Shown piece by piece: positions 2,958 to 35,147 of a stretch of DNA of 38,551 nucleotides. The notes beneath the pieces were generated by a model. The model searched no databases, was not told the origin of the DNA, and worked only from the letters and a program-made list of their open reading frames with translations. Position 1 is the stretch's first letter. Each line of letters starts with the position of its first letter. Origin of the DNA: Chloroflexota bacterium. Lineage in GTDB: Bacteria > Chloroflexota > Dehalococcoidia > Lucifugimonadales > Lucifugimonadaceae. The stretch spans positions 1 to 38,551 of the forward strand of contig JAJRZP010000028.1 of assembly GCA_024275195.1 (NCBI GenBank). Direction: 5' to 3'. The position numbers were made by a program, and so were the translations under genes.

Positions 2958-3157
2958 ATCGGGATTCTATCGGGAATCAACGCCGTAATCGTGTTGGATT
3001 TCAGCGACTATCGAGTTGCTCAGTAGTACGATTAAGCTGATCGTGCTAGGTGGGGCGTTAGCGGTGCCCTGTACTCGCAATCCGCTATAGCGAGACTGAT
3101 GTCCCCCGTCGAGACAGTTCGCATGTGGCCGCTGGAGTCAATACTTAGACGTTGATA

Positions 3158-3252
3158 GCCTGGTCCTGCGCGGCGAGGCCTCGTGAACTCCGTCAGGACC
3201 GGAAGGTAGCAGCGGTAAGCGAATCACCTCGGGTGCCGTGGGTACGCCGGGC
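3158..3252 (+). ncRNA. ffs: Signal recognition particle RNA, small bacterial (4.5S) type
   Basis: The highly conserved Ffh-binding region of helix 8 is present as CAGGACCGGAAGGTAGCAGC, including the GGAA tetraloop and the asymmetric internal loop nucleotides AGCAG. The ends pair: GCCTGG at 3158-3163 with CCGGGC at 3247-3252. Internal segments such as CGAGG and CCTCG are complementary, consistent with the long hairpin of roughly 95 nt typical of 4.5S RNA. It acts with Ffh and FtsY (encoded at 17875 in this window) in co-translational membrane targeting. The exact ends are estimated from the terminal helix. Confidence 0.93.
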
Positions 3253-3395
3253 TAGAGTCGGTGTTGGTATCTATGCCACAAGCAACTGGCGACATGGGGG
3301 CGCACGGTCATATTTTTTGCATCAGATACCTCTTGTGCCGTTCGTACAAGGACTACTCCCCAAGAGCTATGAACTTTTGCGGGTTGGATTAGCCC

Positions 3396-16482: not shown

Positions 16483-17118
16483 ATGGAAGTTAGTAAACCA
16501 GTCAAGATAGATGTGTTCATCGACTACACCTGACCATGGGTGCAGCAAGCCGGCATTTGGTTGGCCAGGGTGAAAGATGAACTCGGAGACGACCTGCGAA
16601 TCAATTGGCGCAGTTTTGCGCTTGAACAGGTAAATTCCAGAGAAGGCGAAGACTGGAAAGCCTGGGAACAAGGTCCCGATTACGTGAGCCGAGGACTCTG
16701 GCCGTTACGTGGTGGCATCGCTGCAAGGGCACAGGGCACCGATGCCCACGTCGACTACATGGAAAAGATTCTTCATGCAAAGCATGTTGAACGTGAAGAT
16801 ATCAGAACCCGAGAAGCGGTAATTACAATCGCGAAAAACGCTGATCTCGATATCGAAATATTCTCCAACGTACTCGATGACCCGGCGTCTCTCGCACAGA
16901 TCGGGGTTGATCACGAGATAGCACTGGGGCTGGGGATATTCGGAACCCCGACTTTCGTATTTGAAAACGGTACATCGGCCTTCTTGAAGATGTTTACGCC
17001 TCCTGAAGACGAAACGATGAGTGCATTCAACGATTTCATGGGTATAGCGAGTGGTCGGAAGTATTTCGGCGAACTCAAACGACCGCAACCGCCATGGCCG
17101 CGGGATGCACGAGACTAA
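16483..17118 (+). CDS. DsbA/FrnE-like selenoprotein (in-frame TGA = selenocysteine at residue 17)
   Basis: A 211-residue thioredoxin-fold protein of the DsbA/2-hydroxychromene isomerase type. From ATG 16483 the frame reads MEVSKPVKIDVFIDYT, then TGA at 16531-16533, then PWVQQAGIWLARV and on to TAA. The TGA falls exactly where DsbA/FrnE proteins carry the first Cys of the C-P-W-C type motif, so the active site is Sec-Pro-Trp-Val. No Cys codon occurs anywhere in the protein, leaving U17 as the only redox residue. The cis-proline loop is GIFGTPTFVF. A SECIS-like hairpin follows the TGA, and tRNA-Sec is encoded at 35050. Calling the gene from GTG 16540 would drop the active site. The frame is also open upstream to 16381 (possible TTG starts at 16405, 16429, 16450), so the N-terminus is uncertain. 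It is first in a run with rnc and ftsY. Confidence 0.85.
16545..16565 (+). promoter_or_regulatory. Putative bacterial SECIS hairpin
   Basis: Just downstream of the in-frame TGA, GCAAGCC (16545-16551) pairs with GGTTGGC (16559-16565): six pairs with one G-U wobble and one A-G mismatch, closing a 7-base loop GGCATTT. The loop starts 18 bases after the TGA and begins with G. Both fit known bacterial SECIS rules (apical loop about 16-37 nt from UGA, a G in the first two loop positions). A competing fold at 16534-16560 is possible. SelB would bind here to deliver Sec-tRNA. Confidence 0.6.
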
Positions 17119-17124
17119 CGACAC

Positions 17125-17865
17125 TTGCCGATAAATCCACTAGACCCTGATCAACTCGATGCCGTCGAAGATGCACTAAACGTAAAGTTTCGTGACAGAG
17201 AGCTTCTAGCACTCGCATTGACACATCAGTCGTACGCCAACGAGCACCCGGATGTCCCTTCCGTTTCCAATGAGCGACTCGAGTTTTTGGGTGACTCGAT
17301 CGTTGGCATGATCGTCGCGGAGCGCCTGTATACAGGCGCTCCCGACCTGGCCGAAGGCGACCTGACAGTAAGGCGTTCGCACATAGTTCGACGGGAAACA
17401 TTGGCCCATGCCGCCCGAGCTATTGGATTGGGAAGTTGGCTTGTGATGGGTAGAGGAGAATCCGTTGCCGGTGGCGATAGGCGATCATCGAATCTCGCAG
17501 ACATGTTCGAAGCGGTCGTTGGGGCCGTTTACGTCGACCGCGGCTATCGCCAGGCGCGTGCGTTCGTGAATAGATGCCTCGGGAAATATGTTGATGAGGC
17601 TCTACGAACCGAGACACGAAAAGATCCGAAATCGCGTTTGCAGGAATATTTACAGGCCAACGGAAACCAGCCACCTCGATATAACTTGGTATCTGAAAGT
17701 GGTACACCAAACGAACTCATATTTACCATGGAGGTGGTAGTTGAGAACAACGCGATCGCTTCGGGGTCGGGAACACGAAAAATTGATGCCGAACGTGAAG
17801 CTGCGAATCGTGCTCTGGACATCCTTCTGCTGAGATCAGATTCGGGCCAATCGTCTGGTCAGTAA
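17125..17865 (+). CDS. rnc: Ribonuclease III
   Basis: A 246-residue double-stranded RNA endonuclease for rRNA and mRNA processing. The catalytic signature NERLEFLGDSIVG is at residues 49-61 with the acidic residues E53 and D57; a second acidic cluster lies in NLADMFEAVVGAVYVDRGY. A C-terminal dsRNA-binding domain spans about residues 165-238 (DPKSRLQEYLQANG to the AEREAANRALD helix). The start is TTG at 17125, six bases after the selenoprotein stop. Order rnc-ftsY is conserved in many bacteria. Confidence 0.95.
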   Translation: MPINPLDPDQLDAVEDALNVKFRDRELLALALTHQSYANEHPDVPSVSNERLEFLGDSIVGMIVAERLYTGAPDLAEGDLTVRRSHIVRRETLAHAARAIGLGSWLVMGRGESVAGGDRRSSNLADMFEAVVGAVYVDRGYRQARAFVNRCLGKYVDEALRTETRKDPKSRLQEYLQANGNQPPRYNLVSESGTPNELIFTMEVVVENNAIASGSGTRKIDAEREAANRALDILLLRSDSGQSSGQ

Positions 17866-17874
17866 ATAGAGAAA

Positions 17875-18819
17875 GTGAGACCGAAACTGTTCGGCGTATT
17901 CAAGAAAAAAGAAAAAACCGCTAAAAGTTCCGAGAAAACCGGATCAGCCTGGCGAAATCGGCTCGACGGAATTTTCCGCCGGTCGAGCATTGACGATGAT
18001 TTCTGGGATGAACTTGAAGAGGCTTTGGTCGTTTCAGATGTTGGCATCAACACTACGATGAACCTCATCGACCAACTGCGAGATATTGTGGACAGCGAGT
18101 CTCTTAAAGAGCCCGAGCAGGTACGCGTACGGATGCGAACCCAGATCGCCAAAATGCTGACTGATTCGTCTGAGATCGATCCGTTTCCCGATGGCGAGTC
18201 GGTTGTTCTGCTCGTAGTTGGAGTGAACGGAGTTGGGAAAACCACTTCGATAGCCAAACTGGTCGATGCCGCCAGATCTGAGGGGCAGAATGTGATGCTC
18301 GCTGCAGCGGACACGTTCCGAGCCGGCGCAATTGAACAGATAAAGATATGGGGTGACCGGCTCGACGTACCGGTCATTGCACAAAAGGCAGGAAGTGATC
18401 CTGGAGCCGTTGCGTTCGACGCACTTAACGCTGCCCGGGCACGTAACGTCGATCTGTTGATAATCGACACGGCAGGGCGGCTGCATACAACTCACAACCT
18501 GATGGAAGAACTCCGAAAAATAAAAAGAATCGTACAGAAGAACGGATCAGGGTTTACCGAAAGAGTTCTGCTCGTGATCGATGGGACAACCGGTCAGAAC
18601 GGGCTGATGCAGGCGAAATCGTTTGCTGAATCGGTCGATTGCAGCGGAGTGTTTTTGACAAAGCTTGACGGAACGGCAAAAGGTGGGGTGGCTCTGGCTA
18701 TCGCTGGAGACCTGAGACTACCGATCTGGTTCATCGGAACCGGTGAAAAATCATCTGACATGTCGGCATTCGACGCCGAAGCGTTCGCGACTGCGCTACT
18801 ACCGGAACCGACTGGTTAG
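17875..18819 (+). CDS. ftsY: Signal recognition particle receptor FtsY
   Basis: A 314-residue SRP GTPase that receives the Ffh-4.5S RNA-ribosome complex at the membrane. It has a short basic N-terminus, a helical N domain (about residues 25-100), P-loop GVNGVGKT at 116-123, the DTFRAGAIEQ motif near 146-155, DTAGR at 198-202, and TKLDGTAKGG towards the C-terminus. The long acidic A domain of E. coli FtsY is absent, as in many bacteria. GTG at 17875 lies nine bases after rnc. Its RNA partner ffs is at 3158 in this window; ffh is not. Confidence 0.95.
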   Translation: MRPKLFGVFKKKEKTAKSSEKTGSAWRNRLDGIFRRSSIDDDFWDELEEALVVSDVGINTTMNLIDQLRDIVDSESLKEPEQVRVRMRTQIAKMLTDSSEIDPFPDGESVVLLVVGVNGVGKTTSIAKLVDAARSEGQNVMLAAADTFRAGAIEQIKIWGDRLDVPVIAQKAGSDPGAVAFDALNAARARNVDLLIIDTAGRLHTTHNLMEELRKIKRIVQKNGSGFTERVLLVIDGTTGQNGLMQAKSFAESVDCSGVFLTKLDGTAKGGVALAIAGDLRLPIWFIGTGEKSSDMSAFDAEAFATALLPEPTG

Positions 18820-18856: not shown

Positions 18857-21244
18857 ATGCTGCAAGCTATCGCAACACTACTCACGGTCGAGCTTATCGG
18901 GCTTGCAGCATTTCCTGTTGTCGCGCGTGCATTCCCAATTCTGGCAGATCGTGGTTGGGCGATCTCAAAACCAATCGGCATGTTGCTGGTCGCTACGACG
19001 GTCTGGCTTGTTTCGTACACCAGGCTCGTTCCGAATTCCCCGATTACCTGGTGGATAGCCCTTGTTGTTCTGGCATCGATAGGTCTCTGGTTTCTACGGA
19101 CGGACTTCCCCCAGATCAGAAGGTCGTTCGTTCGAAGATGGCGAATCATCGTCACCATCGAACTGATATTCATCGTCTTTTTCGTGATGTTTCTTTCGCT
19201 GCGAGCGTACGATCCTGCGGCATCGGGAACTGAAAAGCCGATGGACCTGATGATGCTGACGGCTGTCACCAGTTCCGAATACGCACCACCGCAGGATCTC
19301 TGGCTGGCAGGAGAGCCGGTTGCCTACTACTACTTCGGGTACTGGATATACGGCGGTGTGAACGCAATGGCAGGAACTGTGCCTACAGTTGCGTACAACG
19401 TCGGCATAGCACTCGTTGCCGGGCTGGCTGCGTCGGTCGCTGCAGCGTTCGTTGCGACACTGGTGCGCCGTGATGGCGCCCGTACGAAGGTCGCACTTCT
19501 GGCGGGTTCAGCTTCCACTGTACTGCTGCTTCTGGTATCGAACCTGTCAGGGCTGTGGACTATTTTAGATATCACCGGGGTCGCCCCAGATTGGTTGCTC
19601 AACTGGTATCAAGGCGATCAGTACGACCGCGTCGATCGGATTATCACCTGGCGGCCCGACGATTTTTGGTGGTGGTGGAAAAGTTCAAGAATTATTAACA
19701 CCTACAGTGATACAGGCAACGGGCTCGACTTCACTATTCAGGAGTACCCGTTTTTCAGCTTCCTGCTGGGTGATTTTCATCCTCACCTGATGTCGATACC
19801 GTTTGTACTTACCGGACTTACGATATTGATGGCGCTGTACATCACTCACCGGACAATTTCTTTCGATGTACTGAGGAAGAACTTACCGGCTGCGATCTTA
19901 GTTGCCATTGTTGTCGGAGCATCCGGCTTTATAAACTTCTGGGACGTCGGGCTCTTGCTCTTGCTCTCCACCGGTCTGGTGGTGATGGGATTTCTCGCGA
20001 CACGCCAGGTCGGAATGAAGTCGCTTTTATCGGCAGCACTACCTCTGGGATCGTTGTGGTTGGTTGGCATTCTCGTCTACTCGCCCTTCTACTTCGGTAC
20101 AGCCGAAAGTCAGGTGCAGTGGCCCCCGATAGCCCCGGTGAGTTACGGCACTCGTCCTATTCATCTCATCTCGGTCTGGTTGCTTCTGTTCTCGGTTGGC
20201 GCACCTACTGTCATACTGCTGCTGAACCGCTACATGACGGTTCTGGTAAGAATGGTACGCAGAGGAAGTTCTGATTCAATTGATGGCAGTGGCCGTCGGC
20301 TGATATGGCGACCGGCATGGATAATTGCGCTCAGTCTTGCGGTTGGGCCGTGGGTGATCTGGGCGCTCGCTCACCTTGCGTTCAATGACGGCGCTCAACC
20401 ATCTGATGTGATCACACGACTCCCGATTTCAGGCCTGCTGGGTGGGTTGTCGGTAATCCTGATCGCAGTTGTACTTACCCGTGCCCGGCGTGGGGCGGAC
20501 GATGGTGCCCAGTTTGTGTTGCTTCTCACGGCACTTGCGATCTACCTTATCTTTGCCGCCGAACTGTTCTTCGTCAACGACCTGTTCGGAAACCGTATGA
20601 ACACCGTGTTCAAGTTTTACTATCAGGTCTGGATAGTTCTGGCCATCGTCGGTGGCTATGGCGTTTATATCTGGTGGAAACAACACCAGTTGCTCGATGG
20701 CAGATTCAAACTACTCAGTAGAACCGCTATAGGCATTTTCTCCGTAATAGCTGTTAGTTCGGTCTACTTTCCTGTGGCTGCAGCCGTTACGAAGACGACG
20801 ACTTCTGGACTTGGTCCCAATCTTGATAGTTTGAGTTTCATGGAATCGCGAAACTCCGACGAGTTGAATGTAATTAATGACATCCGGGATATGGCAAACA
20901 GCGACGATGTACTCGTTGAAGCTGTCGGAGGTAGTTATTCAGAGTTTGCTCGAATTTCGGGGTCTTCCGGGGTTCCGACTGTTTTAGGATGGATATTCCA
21001 CGAAACACAATGGCGCGGTGGCGATGATCTGTTTTCTGATCGAGAGTCTGATGTTCGGACGATCTACACCACGAGCGATACGAACGAACTTCAGGAATTG
21101 ATAGACAAATATGAACTCACAATGGTGGTTGTTGGACCACGGGAAAGATCAACCTACGGAAACATTGACATGGCAATGTTCGATACGATTGGTGACCGGA
21201 TAATTGAATATGGCTCTTACACCGTGTTTCGTATCAACTACTAG
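18857..21244 (+). CDS. DUF2298/'YYY' polytopic membrane protein
   Basis: A 795-residue protein with many hydrophobic segments and a tri-tyrosine stretch, EPVAYYYFGYWIYGG, near residues 154-168. This matches my memory of TIGR03662/DUF2298, the 'Chlor_Arch_YYY' family found in Chloroflexi and Archaea. Other notable parts are the aromatic WRPDDFWWWWKSSR loop and FLLGDFHPHLMSIPF, which resembles acidic-loop motifs of GT-C glycosyltransferases. A C-terminal soluble segment of about 130 residues follows the last membrane helix. A GT-C-like polyprenol-sugar transferase is plausible but unproven. It lies 37 bases after ftsY and 3 bases before the GT39-like gene, which I recall as its frequent partner. 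Confidence 0.8.
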   Translation: MLQAIATLLTVELIGLAAFPVVARAFPILADRGWAISKPIGMLLVATTVWLVSYTRLVPNSPITWWIALVVLASIGLWFLRTDFPQIRRSFVRRWRIIVTIELIFIVFFVMFLSLRAYDPAASGTEKPMDLMMLTAVTSSEYAPPQDLWLAGEPVAYYYFGYWIYGGVNAMAGTVPTVAYNVGIALVAGLAASVAAAFVATLVRRDGARTKVALLAGSASTVLLLLVSNLSGLWTILDITGVAPDWLLNWYQGDQYDRVDRIITWRPDDFWWWWKSSRIINTYSDTGNGLDFTIQEYPFFSFLLGDFHPHLMSIPFVLTGLTILMALYITHRTISFDVLRKNLPAAILVAIVVGASGFINFWDVGLLLLLSTGLVVMGFLATRQVGMKSLLSAALPLGSLWLVGILVYSPFYFGTAESQVQWPPIAPVSYGTRPIHLISVWLLLFSVGAPTVILLLNRYMTVLVRMVRRGSSDSIDGSGRRLIWRPAWIIALSLAVGPWVIWALAHLAFNDGAQPSDVITRLPISGLLGGLSVILIAVVLTRARRGADDGAQFVLLLTALAIYLIFAAELFFVNDLFGNRMNTVFKFYYQVWIVLAIVGGYGVYIWWKQHQLLDGRFKLLSRTAIGIFSVIAVSSVYFPVAAAVTKTTTSGLGPNLDSLSFMESRNSDELNVINDIRDMANSDDVLVEAVGGSYSEFARISGSSGVPTVLGWIFHETQWRGGDDLFSDRESDVRTIYTTSDTNELQELIDKYELTMVVVGPRERSTYGNIDMAMFDTIGDRIIEYGSYTVFRINY

Positions 21245-21247
21245 CCG

Positions 21248-23626
21248 TTGACCATAGATAACACTTCAAACGAATCAGACGTGATCAACAGTCAATCCAG
21301 CACTGGCAGCTGGGTTGACGGAATCTGGGTTGATGGCGACCCGACCGATATTCAAGTTACCCGTCCCCGTACCGCCGATACTGATCGGGCCGACTCAGAA
21401 TCAAAGACAGGTTTCCTCATCCCGTTCAAGATCGAATATTCGATCTATGCGGGACTTGTGATGATCGCCCTGGCAATGCGGCTATACGACCTTGGTGGGC
21501 GTGCTGTGCACCACGATGAGAGCCTGCACGGTTATTTTTCTTACCAGTTGTTCAATGGTGCTGGTTACGATCACAACCCATTGATGCACGGGATGTTCCT
21601 GTTCTACTCGATAGCGACCTCATTTTTTATCGTTGGCGACAGCGATTTCTCACTTCGCCTGCCGATGGCGCTGTTCGGGACGGGCCTCGTTCTTGTCCCG
21701 CTATTGCTGAAACCTCGAATCGGGCAGGTTGGTGCAGTTATCGCGGCAGGTATGTTGGCGTTCTCTCCAGCCATCCTCTACTACAGCCGTTTTGCCCGTG
21801 CTGACATATTCATGGCGGTATTCACCCTGGCCCTGATAGGCGTGATGTGGCGTTATCTGGACGAGCGTAAAAATCGTTGGCTGTACATCGCAGCCGCGCT
21901 GATGGCTCTTGGGTACGCAACAAAAGAGACGCAGTACATAGTCGTCGCACTGCTCGGTGCCTATCTTTTCACCCAGGTATGGCCAGAACTGCGCGATTGG
22001 CTCTACGCACGAAAGACGCTCAGGGAATTCAGCCCTGAGGCATCGTTCTTTGTGTTGCTGGCAGTATTGAGTTTGCCCCTGCTTGCAGCGGGGGTGGCCA
22101 TATTCCAGAACGTGCTAGGGGTAACACTGGCTGCTGAAGATGGCTTACCCGGAGTAGCAACCGGATCTCCCAACGGTGCTGGTTGGAACTTCGCAATTGG
22201 TATCAGCGCTGCATTTCTCGCAGCGGCCCTTGCTATCGGTTGGTACTGGAATCGGCGTGTATTCCTGGTTGCGTTTAGCGTATTCGCGATCATTTTCGTG
22301 CTGCTGTTCTCTGGTTTTGGCTCGAACCCGGCAGGAGTAGGCAGTGGAGCGTGGCAATCCCTCGGTTACTGGTTAGCCCAGCAGGATGTGGCACGGGGGA
22401 ACCAGCCCTGGTACTACTACTTCACGATTGCGTCGATCTACGAGTTCCTACCGTTTGGTGTCGCAGGAGCCGCTGGAATTTACTACGGGTTCAAATCGGG
22501 GTTTCGACCGTGGATCTTCGTTGCATTAATAGCCGTTGCGATGGTGGTTCTAGCGAACGACACACTGAGCTTCGAGCGCGGATTGGTCAAAGGCGAAGAG
22601 CAGGATGTTCTCTCTTACGTCGGGAAACTCGCCCTGATCGTCGTTTACGGGTCGGCCGTGGCGATTCCTTTCGTCCTGCGAATGTCGAAGTTCAACAAAT
22701 TCCTACTTTTCTGGACGATAGGCACCTTTATCGCATATACACATGCCGGTGAGAAAATGCCCTGGCTGCTGGTGAACATCGTGTTGCCAGCGATCATCCT
22801 CGCGGCATCCACGCTCAACGACGTCATCATGTCGATCGACTGGCGCAAATCCTGGCGCAGTCGGGCGGGTCTGGCGCTGGCTGGCGTTCCGATTTTCTAC
22901 ATAATGCTGTGGAAACTGGTCTTCGGCGATCTTGGTGAAGGTTCAAAGCAGTTTGCCTCAGCCTGGGCTATTCTCGCCCTACTCGGATTGCTACTTCTTG
23001 CATTGCAGATACTGGCAAGCAGAATCGGCCGATCGCAAGCACTGGGAATCGTCGGGCTAATTTCAGTTGTCATAGTATTTGGATTCACATTCCGCGCCGG
23101 TTGGGTCGCCAACTTCGAAAACGGTGATATCCCCCGCGAGATGCTCGTTTACACCCAGACATCTCCCGATATTCACGATCTGGCAGAAGAGATTGAAAGA
23201 ATTGGCCAACTGACTGGCGATCGGGAAGAGATAAAGATAGCGATCGACACACGAGATGCTTACTCGTGGCCCTGGCAGTGGTATCTCAGGCGCTACACCG
23301 AGGTTGCGTTCAACGACTACACATCCGGTGAGGTTGAAGTGGGTGAAGACCGTGTCATAGCCGTTATCAACGAAAACAACAACTCGAAAGTCGTCACCAC
23401 ACTTCCCGATGGCTTCTCCGAGGGAAGAAGACTTGTTCACCGCTGGTGGTTCCCCGAAAGATACCGAAACGTAACTCCACGAACATTTTTCGACACTTTG
23501 CGTGATCGAAATCGATGGGCTGGCTCGATAGACTATTTCCTGTACAGGGAGCTATCCAACCCGTTAGGCACCATCGATTCCTTCGTTTACATATCCGAAG
23601 ATGTGCCGCTCGTACCCGCGAGATAG
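21248..23626 (+). CDS. GT39-like membrane glycosyltransferase (TIGR03663-like)
   Basis: A 792-residue polytopic protein starting at TTG 21248, three bases after the previous stop. A polar N-terminal tail of about 58 residues precedes the first membrane helix. The first periplasmic loop has RAVHHDESLHGYFSYQLF (HHDES at 88-92), the Asp/Glu-containing motif expected of GT-C enzymes that use polyprenol-phosphate sugars (PMT/ArnT-like). The hydrophobic core ends near residue 620 and is followed by a soluble domain of roughly 165 residues. It fits TIGR03663, recalled as companion of the YYY family. The donor and acceptor are unknown. Confidence 0.8.
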   Translation: MTIDNTSNESDVINSQSSTGSWVDGIWVDGDPTDIQVTRPRTADTDRADSESKTGFLIPFKIEYSIYAGLVMIALAMRLYDLGGRAVHHDESLHGYFSYQLFNGAGYDHNPLMHGMFLFYSIATSFFIVGDSDFSLRLPMALFGTGLVLVPLLLKPRIGQVGAVIAAGMLAFSPAILYYSRFARADIFMAVFTLALIGVMWRYLDERKNRWLYIAAALMALGYATKETQYIVVALLGAYLFTQVWPELRDWLYARKTLREFSPEASFFVLLAVLSLPLLAAGVAIFQNVLGVTLAAEDGLPGVATGSPNGAGWNFAIGISAAFLAAALAIGWYWNRRVFLVAFSVFAIIFVLLFSGFGSNPAGVGSGAWQSLGYWLAQQDVARGNQPWYYYFTIASIYEFLPFGVAGAAGIYYGFKSGFRPWIFVALIAVAMVVLANDTLSFERGLVKGEEQDVLSYVGKLALIVVYGSAVAIPFVLRMSKFNKFLLFWTIGTFIAYTHAGEKMPWLLVNIVLPAIILAASTLNDVIMSIDWRKSWRSRAGLALAGVPIFYIMLWKLVFGDLGEGSKQFASAWAILALLGLLLLALQILASRIGRSQALGIVGLISVVIVFGFTFRAGWVANFENGDIPREMLVYTQTSPDIHDLAEEIERIGQLTGDREEIKIAIDTRDAYSWPWQWYLRRYTEVAFNDYTSGEVEVGEDRVIAVINENNNSKVVTTLPDGFSEGRRLVHRWWFPERYRNVTPRTFFDTLRDRNRWAGSIDYFLYRELSNPLGTIDSFVYISEDVPLVPAR

Positions 23627-31626: not shown

Positions 31627-34317
31627 ATGGCCGATGGAACAACCTTCAAGATCGATGGCCGCGAGGTAATTGCGAAACCTGGCCAGACGATTCTGCAGGC
31701 GGCGATGGATCAGGATATATACATTCCTTACCTTTGCTACTACCCGAAAATGAAGCCGCAAGGCTCCTGTCGGGCTTGCATGGTTGAGGTCGAAGCGAAC
31801 GGTCGAAAAATGACTGTCGCCTCCTGCACGACGCCACCGATGCCGGATGCCGATGTCACCACGAATAGCCAGGATGTGAAGGAACTCCGGAAGAATGTGA
31901 TTGAACTCCTGATGACAGAGCACCCGCACGGCTGCCTCACATGTCATCGGATCGAACTATGTGGGCCACAGGATATTTGCCAGCGCCACGTGACGGTCAC
32001 CGACAGATGCACGATCTGCCCGAAGAACGAGCGGTGTGAATTAAAAGACACGGTACGTATGGTCGAACTCGATCTGCGTACACCGTTGAACTATCACCGA
32101 CGCGATCTGCCGATACACTCCGATGACCCGTTTTACGATCGTGACTACAACCTTTGCATCGTTTGCTCTCGCTGTGTTCGGGTGTGCGACGAGGTCCGGT
32201 TCGACACCGCTCTGACACTCACTTCCCGTTCAGGCGTTGCACTCGTCGGGACGGCTCATGGAACGTCACTGCTTGAGTCAGGTTGTGAGTTTTGTGGGGC
32301 TTGCGTCGATGTCTGCCCAACGGGATCACTTACCGAGCGATCGTACAAGTGGGAGAAGGCAGTCGCAGAAGTAAAAACCGTATGTATGAACTGTCCGGTG
32401 GGTTGTCAGATGATCGCCGAGGTGAACAAGTTCGGCAAAGTGGTCCGGTTCAAAGGCGATCTCGCGGGTGCTGCAAACAATGGTCAGGCCTGCATGGCTG
32501 GCAAGTTCGGGTACGAATACACGAACGACAGCTCGAGAATAAAGCGGCCCTATATCCGCGAAGGCGGAATTCTTCGAAAAGCAACCTGGGATGAGGCACT
32601 CGAGCGCATCAAGACCGGATTCAATGGTCGTTCCCCGGAAGAGCTTGCTGTAATCACATCTCCTCGGGGCTCAAATGAAGATCAATACGTCGCGGCGAAG
32701 TTCGCGAAATCTGTTCTAAACACCCCGAACATCGATTCGACCCTGAATTCAAATGGTGCGATGTTGTCACGTCTGGAAGACCGATTGGGAGCGGGTGCAG
32801 CGACGAACCCGATCTGGGATATCGAGAATGCGAAAAGCCTGCTCGTAATCGCCGGAAATCCAACCGAAGAACAGAACGTCCTCGCAGTTCCTGCCAAGAA
32901 AGCGGTGCGCGAAGGGGCAAAGCTGGTCGTTATCGACTCTCGCGAGACTGAACTGACTCGTTACGCCACTGAGTGGCTGCGTCCCAAGCCGGGATCGGAA
33001 GCACTTCTCGTAGCCGGCATGAGTCGTGTGATCCTCGACGAGGCGCTTGAGGACAAAGAGTTCGTTGGCTCACGTATCAATCAGGCAGAAGAATTGAAGC
33101 AGTCGTTGTGGAAGTTCGATCTTGCAAAGGTTTCTCGAGACACCGGAATAGAAGATTCGCAGATCCGTCGCGCCGCGAGAGTCTTCGCTGGGAGTGATGC
33201 AGGTGCAATCTTGCTTGGTAACGATGGCATGGGCGATTCTGCCGTCGAAAAACTTGTCGATGCCGTGGTCGATCTCGCGTCAATCACAGGAAACATTGGG
33301 AGAGTGTCTGGCGGCATCTACCCGCTGTATCACGGGGCAAACACGCTCGGTGCCCGCGATATGGGAGCTTCTCCCGGCGAGAACGGTTACGGTATTTCCC
33401 AGATGATCTCAAAGATGTCTACAGGAGACATCAAGGCCGCTCTGTTGATGGCCGACGGAGTCTCGGGATATTCACCTTCACTGCGAGCACTTCCGGCAGC
33501 ACTGGAATCTCTTGATTTCCTCGTCGTGTCAGCGGTGCTGGACTCAGAGCTAACGCATCACGCTGATGTCGTACTGCCCGCGGCAACTTACGCAGAGCAG
33601 AACTCGACCGCTACGAATGTTGAACGAAGAGTCCAGCTACTCAGGATCACGGCTGAGCCACGTCATGAGGAAAAGACCGGCTGGGAGACGATTGCAGCTA
33701 TTGCGAATGCAATCGGGACCTCAGAATTTAGTTTCACCTCATCATCCGAGGTATTCGCCGAAATTTCGGAAAACATACCTGACTACAACGGCCTGTCACA
33801 CGAACTACTTCGATCCGGCGGAGTCCAGTGGCCAACCGGCTCGGACGATTCGGCAGTACTGTTCTCTGACCCCAGTTCAAACGTAAGCGCGGTTTCTCTG
33901 GACTACGATGATCTGGCGAGTTCGATCGATAGTGAAGTGCTCACGTTTGCCCCCGGCCGTGTACTGAGCCAACCGGAACGGGATGTAATTGTTCGCAAAC
34001 CAGCCGATATGAACTATCTCGATCGTGAGCAACTTGTACAGGTACATCCTGACGATGCCAAATCTGCAGGGTTGAGCGAAGGCGACGTTGTTCAGGTCAC
34101 GAGCGAAGGCGGTCATGTGATTGCACGCGGCAAGGCGATATTTGAGTCGCCGCAGATAGGTCTGATAGGCGTCACAACCCTATTTGGCGAGTTGGCGACG
34201 CGGATGCATGAGCTCGATACCCCCGATTGGACACCACAAATGCCGGGTTTAGGGTATTCAAGGGTTACACTAGAGTCAGCACCTGTTGAACAAGAAGCGA
34301 GTGCAGCGGCTGATTAA
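31627..34317 (+). CDS. nuoG: NuoG/FdhA-like iron-sulfur molybdopterin-type subunit lacking the catalytic Cys/Sec
   Basis: An 896-residue multi-cluster protein. In order: [2Fe-2S] ligands C37, C48, C51, C67; a His-Cys3 motif H99, C103, C106, C112, with a further cysteine group C118, C128, C131, C137; two ferredoxin clusters C177/180/183/187 and C220/223/226/230; then a molybdopterin-oxidoreductase [4Fe-4S] site C253, C256, C260, C289 and the molybdopterin domain. Where formate dehydrogenases carry catalytic Cys or Sec (usually RxCH or RxUH), this protein reads NIDSTLNSNGAMLSRL, with neither Cys nor TGA. So formate oxidation is unlikely; an electron-transfer, NuoG-like role is preferred. The C-terminus is an aspartate-decarboxylase-like MopB domain (residues about 790-885). 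Confidence 0.85.
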   Translation: MADGTTFKIDGREVIAKPGQTILQAAMDQDIYIPYLCYYPKMKPQGSCRACMVEVEANGRKMTVASCTTPPMPDADVTTNSQDVKELRKNVIELLMTEHPHGCLTCHRIELCGPQDICQRHVTVTDRCTICPKNERCELKDTVRMVELDLRTPLNYHRRDLPIHSDDPFYDRDYNLCIVCSRCVRVCDEVRFDTALTLTSRSGVALVGTAHGTSLLESGCEFCGACVDVCPTGSLTERSYKWEKAVAEVKTVCMNCPVGCQMIAEVNKFGKVVRFKGDLAGAANNGQACMAGKFGYEYTNDSSRIKRPYIREGGILRKATWDEALERIKTGFNGRSPEELAVITSPRGSNEDQYVAAKFAKSVLNTPNIDSTLNSNGAMLSRLEDRLGAGAATNPIWDIENAKSLLVIAGNPTEEQNVLAVPAKKAVREGAKLVVIDSRETELTRYATEWLRPKPGSEALLVAGMSRVILDEALEDKEFVGSRINQAEELKQSLWKFDLAKVSRDTGIEDSQIRRAARVFAGSDAGAILLGNDGMGDSAVEKLVDAVVDLASITGNIGRVSGGIYPLYHGANTLGARDMGASPGENGYGISQMISKMSTGDIKAALLMADGVSGYSPSLRALPAALESLDFLVVSAVLDSELTHHADVVLPAATYAEQNSTATNVERRVQLLRITAEPRHEEKTGWETIAAIANAIGTSEFSFTSSSEVFAEISENIPDYNGLSHELLRSGGVQWPTGSDDSAVLFSDPSSNVSAVSLDYDDLASSIDSEVLTFAPGRVLSQPERDVIVRKPADMNYLDREQLVQVHPDDAKSAGLSEGDVVQVTSEGGHVIARGKAIFESPQIGLIGVTTLFGELATRMHELDTPDWTPQMPGLGYSRVTLESAPVEQEASAAAD

Positions 34318-35049: not shown

Positions 35050-35147
35050 GGGAGTGGATGGGTCCCGGTGGGCCTCACGGACTTCAACTCCGCTGGCGTG
35101 CGTCCTTCGACGTGCGCGGAGGGTTCGACTCCCTTGCACTCCCGCCA
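35050..35147 (+). tRNA. selC: tRNA-Sec (anticodon TCA)
   Basis: A 98-nt tRNA with all the special features of bacterial tRNA-Sec. The acceptor stem 35050-35056 pairs with 35137-35143; an eighth position would be a G-G mismatch (35057/35136). The D stem has six pairs with a 4-base loop (60-65 with 70-75, last two digits). The anticodon loop is CTTCAAC with TCA at 35084-35086. The long extra arm is a 9-bp stem (96-104 with 109-117) closed by CTTC. The T arm is 5 bp around TTCGACT, and discriminator G and CCA are encoded. It decodes UGA as selenocysteine. It stands alone between the trxA terminator and the enolase-like gene; selA, selB and selD are not in the window. Confidence 0.95.

Follow-up and report, generated by a model that had tools for sequence, protein, structure and literature searches.

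Many of the catalogued thioredoxin-fold selenoproteins of bacteria carry a Cys partner near the selenocysteine (Sec), as UxxC or CxxU (PMC13188914; this and the other papers are cited for individual passages, except where a main text is named). DsbA-like form 1, a UxxC selenoprotein, dates from the Sargasso Sea work of 2005 (PMC1088965). A 2026 table lists separately, and as a prediction only, a 'DsbA-like protein form 2 (crotonase/enoyl-CoA hydratase family protein)' with the domain PF01323, the motif DxxUP and the accession MDP6049977.1, citing its ref. 62 (PMC13188914). That reference is PMC5029168, where the main text mentions DsbA once, as a count in Table 3. An earlier review has a crotonase-type entry under another accession, with no motif in the passage concerned (PMC9312934). 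DsbA-like proteins with a single Cys have been described in Deinococcus; these DR2335-type proteins have one conserved Cys and are predicted to be cytoplasmic, and in the passage cited the authors were aware of no function or expression data (PMC8945050). Our literature search by 7DK9 and 7DKA, the PDB entries of DR2335, gave nothing relevant. We found no paper joining a selenoprotein with SAR202, and no reported assay for a mono-selenol reductase of the type that we propose here.

The stretch of DNA that was analysed (the window, 38,551 nucleotides) belongs to a SAR202 Chloroflexota genome (assembly of 2.70 Mb, 171 contigs) of the same genus as Ca. Lucifugimonas marina. The features that matter for the argument are as follows.

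16483..17118, + strand: gene of the predicted DSBA-fold selenoprotein (TGA=U translation, PF01323, homologs, AlphaFold2 mean pLDDT 92.2)
16531..16533, + strand: in-frame TGA, codon 17, read as Sec (46 close loci: 39 TGA, 7 TGC/TGT)
16549..16565, + strand: SECIS-like hairpin (stem excess in Sec forms; pairing in 11 near relatives)
16939..16953, + strand: cis-Pro loop F-G-T-P-T, residues 153-157 (F153, G154, P156 and T157 invariant in 37 rows)
17125..17865, + strand: rnc, ribonuclease III (PF14622, PF00636, PF00035)
17875..18819, + strand: ftsY, next gene of the same-strand run (TIGR00064, 330.5 bits, above cut-off)
35050..35147, + strand: tRNA-Sec (ARAGORN; RF01852, 66.5 bits)

Translated with TGA as U, the gene runs from an ATG to a TAA stop (17116-17118) and encodes 211 residues, beginning with MEVSKPVKIDVFIDYTUPWVQQAG. 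There is a single in-frame TGA, in the context D-Y-T-U-P-W-V. The table-11 ORF listing of the window shows only a 192 aa ORF with a GTG start at 16540. An earlier note on this DNA had considered the GTG start to be only apparent, with the frame open upstream through the single TGA, and the translation confirmed this along with the coordinates. The cis-Pro loop that it had placed after the TGA was also observed, as FGTPT, and the active-site stretch reads I-D-V-F-I-D-Y-T-U-P-W-V. The PF01323 (DSBA) match (50.7 bits vs a cut-off of 25.6, E 2.6e-13, with Cys standing for Sec) covers residues 9-163, and thus spans the TGA. Table-11 ORF calling shortens the selenoprotein gene, and NCBIfam has no model that fits it. 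The best of the NCBIfam selenoprotein models for the window protein was NF041057, and a curated identity was rejected since the score (18.2 bits vs a cut-off of 190) was far too low; of 37 family members, 34 matched this model within an E limit of 0.1, the best of them with 1.6e-07. No export leader was visible by inspection ahead of the first strand (residues 7-13), and a promoter scan upstream of the gene gave one weak site vs 1.1 expected in shuffles.

We examined the TGA codon in relatives of the gene. Of 393 genomes of the class, 71 gave matches, and 47 loci were fetched from the best 49 rows (E up to 2e-26); the two rows outside this close set are a partial gene in G091 and the 3' half of a split gene in G308. 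One of the 47 loci (L018) is without its 5' part, so that 46 codons could be read. All 46 had either TGA (39 loci) or TGC/TGT (7 loci) at the column of the window TGA. This agrees with the earlier note, which had placed Sec at the position of the catalytic Cys and had looked to homologs with an aligned Cys for support. It had also named reads with TGC or TGT in place of the TGA as a refutation. We observed instead this TGA in further assemblies as well (protein identity 79-86%), one of them the complete genome of Ca. Lucifugimonas marina JH1073 (CP046147; gene at 85-86% identity), and the TGA is thus no read error. Among the loci of named genomes (L067-L084, partly the same genes as the close set), TGA was present in 16 of 18 and a Cys codon in 2.

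The family extends over several classes of Chloroflexota. When 400 genomes were searched phylum-wide with a profile, 128 matched at E up to 1e-10, and the best 30 loci were read. Seven of these repeat earlier genomes. The other 23 are new and all come from other classes; 6 have TGA (L114, L116, L117, L118, L120 and L133) and 17 have Cys, which was the only Cys counted in 15 of the 17. We built a tree, with the trait column masked, from 59 proteins, of which 49 are Sec and 10 are Cys forms; it required at least six changes between Sec and Cys, outgroup included. This count has no direction, and several long branches were flagged by the tree program. Cys forms lie at up to five places within the family, two of them on one open fork that may be a single place. 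The outgroup consists of three more distant CPWC/UPWC proteins (L064-L066) that were read beside the 46 close loci. One of them, L066 (in G027), is a UPWC protein with an in-frame TGA of its own, and a UxxC DsbA-like selenoprotein is therefore probably also present in this class.

Coding constraint was seen on both sides of the TGA. In ten near relatives (45 pairs), pN/pS was 0.225 for the 9 codons that precede the TGA and 0.167 for the 12 that follow it. Over codons 13-100 past the TGA it was 0.259 in the ten near relatives, with synonymous sites saturated there.

The SECIS-like hairpin was evaluated both in the window and across the family. In the window it has 6 bp (arms 16549-16554 and 16560-16565) and the loop ATTTG, which starts 21 nt past the TGA. 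Taken alone it is unexceptional, as 23% of 5000 synonymous recodings had a stem at least as long and 25% an energy at least as low. Compared with the bacterial SECIS model (PMC13188914, section 5), the spacing of 21 fits and the early G of the loop is missing. When the published rules for loop length, early G and spacing (16-37) were applied as a scan, the window gave no hairpin. By hand count and with L064-L066 included, the same scan was positive for 38 of the 40 Sec sequences and 7 of the 9 Cys sequences; hairpins of -7.5 kcal/mol or below were present in 29 of the Sec and 5 of the Cys sequences. The rule scan decides nothing, since the two groups are not separated and the window has no hit.

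In the expected place, the longest stem of the 39 Sec forms averaged 5.82 pairs. None of 500 column-wise synonymous permutations (mean 4.46) and none of 300 recodings by their own codon usage (mean 3.78) reached this value. Their energy was -9.65 vs -6.89 permuted (0/500) and -5.82 recoded (0/300). No excess of stem was observed for the 7 Cys forms (mean 3.57; 212 of 300 recodings as high), the folding energy of which was nonetheless below that of the recodings (3 of 300 as low). Among the 11 near relatives, 96% of cells are paired in one register, vs 8% and 12% in registers shifted by two bases, and one pair has changed on both sides (types C-G, U-G, G-U and G-C). The 23 farther relatives share a register that is shifted by one base, with 78% of cells paired; a shift of two bases lowers this to 36% and 20%. 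These groups were picked after both registers had been seen, and the Sec sequences L007-L011 belong to neither. A five-pair helix in a mixed 16-row alignment paired no better than shuffles (125/500), and a slide by -3 scored higher. Judged across relatives, which is the only level at which it is significant, the hairpin after the TGA is a family-wide feature of the Sec forms. The earlier note had pointed to a SECIS-like hairpin within 16531-16580; it is present there, with the family-wide stem excess behind it, but its loop departs from the model.

The genome was also searched for the selenocysteine machinery that the earlier note had expected, and both selA (511 bits) and selD (371 bits) were found. 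SelB was in pieces: an N-terminal match (283 bits) ends close to the edge of a contig, and the C-terminal part has a weak match (34 bits) on another contig. SelB is full length in four single-contig relatives. The tRNA-Sec is in the window, as the note had said. It lies ~18 kb downstream of the gene, and a spacing of ~16-18 kb occurs in several family genomes. The selD of the genome (G000:C68:7699-8628, L042) contains one in-frame TGA, so that SelD is probably a selenoprotein too.

Among the genomes of the close loci, selA was above cut-off in 38 of 39 with the Sec form vs 4 of 7 with the Cys form (Fisher p 0.0086, kinship ignored). The one exception, G029 (71% complete), has a tRNA-Sec match of 75.5 bits. 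As the Rfam cut-off for tRNA-Sec was unspecific here (all 53 genomes and all 14 controls matched), we set the threshold at 60 bits; by hand count, 35 of the 38 Sec-form genomes searched had such a strong match, as did 4 of the 7 with the Cys form. In two Cys-form genomes (G050 and G014), SelA and SelB were below their cut-offs and no strong tRNA-Sec was found. Since selA is kept in 4 of the 7 Cys-form genomes, loss of the machinery is not the sole route to Cys. It is also found in four genomes of the order or family that have no match to the selenoprotein family (G099, G230, G147 and G378).

The Sec/Cys pairs at one column, the two-sided coding constraint, the hairpin of the Sec forms and the presence of selA, selD, SelB and tRNA-Sec have led us to conclude that the TGA is almost certainly read as Sec, about as sure as sequence comparison allows. 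Genome-wide reassignment of TGA was rejected, as three of 16 window ORFs examined stop at TGA (a weak check).

We then considered the fold. The AlphaFold2 model (pTM 0.88, Cys standing for Sec) had its best PDB match by Foldseek in Deinococcus radiodurans DR2335 (7dk9, and 7dka with C24S), with TM 0.80-0.81 and 22-23% identity. A profile search likewise ranked DR2335 first (E 7.3e-27), with the DR2335 Cys on the Sec column. Weaker structure matches were YjbH and Rv2466c (TM by query 0.64-0.71) and DsbA proteins. D14, U/C17 and P18 are invariant in 37 rows, and also invariant or near-invariant are V20, W26, L47, Q49, N51, W61, A80, A81, G85, H101, A117, L122, F127, G151, F153, G154, P156, T157, E197, K199, R200 and P201. 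The earlier description 'DsbA/FrnE-like' stands as to the DSBA fold. 'FrnE-like' is only loosely apt, as the active site of FrnE is CxxC and the solved structure closest to this protein is that of DR2335, with its one Cys.

The window protein has no Cys, and U17 is its sole residue of Cys type. The term 'Cysteine-free' used by the earlier note is right for this protein and too wide for the family, since in the stretch counted only 24 of the 39 Sec forms are without Cys, and the other 15 carry one. Of the Cys forms, three have the active-site Cys only and four have two or three in all, so that another Cys could matter in some members. The absence of a resolving partner (U-x-x-V) was upheld throughout. 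Of 37 aligned rows, 36 have V at +3 after Sec or Cys and one has A; Cys at +3 was found in none of these rows, of the 46 close loci or of the best 30 phylum loci. The enzyme thus probably relies on an outside thiol. As the earlier note had argued, the anatomy excludes classical exchange within one CxxC-type site.

Thiol synthesis genes were looked for in five genomes. For glutathione, GshB was not above cut-off in any of the five (two sub-threshold matches); for bacillithiol, BshC was absent in all five. MshC was likewise above cut-off in none of them, and its sub-threshold matches are probably cysteinyl-tRNA synthetase. The lack of GshB above cut-off makes a glutathione route look unlikely for this protein, and weakens the glutathione branch of the chemistry suggested by the note.

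One active-site chalcogen, the cis-Pro loop, no partner at +3, exchange of Sec with Cys and not with Ser, and no visible export signal point to a cytosolic mono-selenol reductase that is resolved by an outside thiol, and we regard this as probable. Sec17 would be put in at the UGA by SelB and tRNA-Sec, aided by the hairpin just downstream. It would lie immediately ahead of the first helix and, as the fold suggests by analogy, face the cis-Pro loop. The protein would work in the cytosol, where a mixed disulfide, sulfenic acid or peroxide would be the oxidised substrate that the Sec attacks. An outside low-molecular-weight thiol or thioredoxin would then resolve the product, a selenenyl-sulfide or selenenic acid, since the protein is without a resolving Cys.

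The main rival is a selenoperoxidase, in which the single Sec would reduce peroxides in the manner of 1-Cys peroxiredoxins or glutathione peroxidase (GPx) with an outside thiol. One Sec with no Cys at +3 suits such an enzyme. The glutathione peroxidase tetrad includes Gln, Asn and Trp, and residues of these types are near-invariant here (Gln49 in 34/37, Asn51 in 34/37 and Trp61 in 35/37 rows), a match by residue type only. These residues may serve substrate binding instead, and the fold is DSBA, neither GPx nor peroxiredoxin. The cultured relative Ca. Lucifugimonas marina would fit with a peroxidase, being aerobic and light-inhibited; it is also described as slow-growing, with cell death of one strain under continuous light (PMC10444878). 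The main text of that paper has no selenium-related words (stem 'selen'). On balance, we consider a selenoperoxidase unlikely.

An isomerase or transferase resembling kappa-class GST or 2-hydroxychromene-2-carboxylate (HCCA) isomerase, with Sec as a non-redox nucleophile or thiol-binding residue, appears rather improbable to us. Structure matches to such enzymes were obtained (1r4w, 1yzx, 3rpp, 3fz5 and 2imd), and they too have a single residue at the site; the TM by query was 0.58-0.63, vs 0.81 for DR2335. The column has Sec or Cys in each member read and never Ser, GshB was not above cut-off in the five genomes, and the upkeep of a costly Sec would suggest redox chemistry. The earlier note had named isomerase and transferase chemistry among its options, and the fold is the one positive sign of it that we found.

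An ordinary CxxC-type DsbA/FrnE oxidoreductase, in which Sec replaces the first Cys, is very improbable. The PF01323 match would allow it, UxxC DsbA-like Sec proteins are known (PMC1088965), and the UPWC protein L066 is in the same class. However, residue +3 is V or once A in 37/37 rows, the window protein is without any Cys, and the UPWC/CPWC outgroup is split off by a long, flagged branch. A pseudogene or sequencing error, in which the TGA is a true stop and the product is the 192 aa ORF from the GTG or none at all, is hardly credible: table 11 does give the downstream ORF only, and the product is so far known from sequence alone, but TGA is found in 39/46 loci with Cys in the remaining 7, selection ahead of the TGA is purifying, the Sec machinery is present, and other assemblies including a complete genome agree.

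The gene directly downstream of the putative mono-selenol reductase is rnc, with a possible TTG start 6 nt past the selenoprotein stop. In 21 loci chosen for spread, the window included, rnc was the next gene on the same strand in 18 (the window, L087-L100, L102, L103 and L106) and was not found in L101, L104 and L105. With the longest ORF start taken, the gap in the 18 loci was -54 to +67 nt, often an overlap; no other neighbour recurs in more than 10 of the 21. Within the class, rnc was next in 28 of 29 loci (L001-L030 without L018; starts are estimated, and off in L006, L025 and L029). None of the 23 other-class loci had rnc within the 1.4-1.5 kb examined. The selenoprotein and rnc are a possible coupled pair. 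One could imagine translational coupling in SAR202, in which readthrough of the UGA would be needed for re-initiation at rnc, and selenium would set the levels of both RNase III and the mono-selenol reductase; we consider this a long shot. Cys forms also keep the pair (L015, L017, L019 and L099), and the linkage is therefore no proof of a selenium switch.

Other features of the window were also observed. A DUF2298 (Chlor_Arch_YYY) gene and an Agl23-type gene, adjacent and of membrane type, lie at 18857-23626, and they occur near rnc in 9 and 8 of the 21 loci. A large bacterial signal recognition particle RNA is present at 3041-3307 (176.1 bits), in the same window as ftsY. At 31627-34317 there is an 896 aa molybdopterin oxidoreductase that falls between the formate dehydrogenase alpha and NuoG types (TIGR01591 389.6 bits and TIGR01973 320.8 bits, both below cut-off). 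A simple motif scan found no Cys/Sec-His motif in it, so that the usual metal-ligand residue may be missing.

Comparison with the known systems places the DSBA-fold selenoprotein closest to DR2335, which has the same fold and a single conserved Cys aligned with the Sec of the window protein. It differs in having Cys instead of Sec and in belonging to a different phylum. FrnE of Deinococcus (DR_0659) shares the DsbA fold and a predicted cytoplasmic location (PMC8945050), but has a CxxC site, often with a C-terminal CxxxxC, and is a weaker match (TM by query 0.59-0.61). Kappa-class GST and HCCA isomerase share a DsbA-like fold. They have a single active-site residue, which is Ser, whereas all family members read have Sec or Cys; their partner is glutathione, for which no synthetase scored above cut-off in the five genomes searched.

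With respect to known selenoproteins, form 1 is likewise of DSBA type with Sec at the first active-site position, but it has a resolving Cys (UxxC) where the window family has V, once A. The family is very likely the catalogued DsbA-like form 2. We take it as already catalogued because it has the PF01323 domain and because DxxUP fits D14-Y-T-U17-P18 exactly, the identity being by domain and motif only. The catalogue passages on form 2 are without anatomy, distribution or function (PMC13188914). The present analysis adds the lack of a partner Cys, the repeated exchange of Sec and Cys, and the rnc gene almost touching downstream. As a close relative is in culture, the selenoprotein is open to direct testing. 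Together, these comparisons indicate a family that spans several classes of Chloroflexota and keeps a single active-site Sec or Cys, with no Cys at +3 in the members read.
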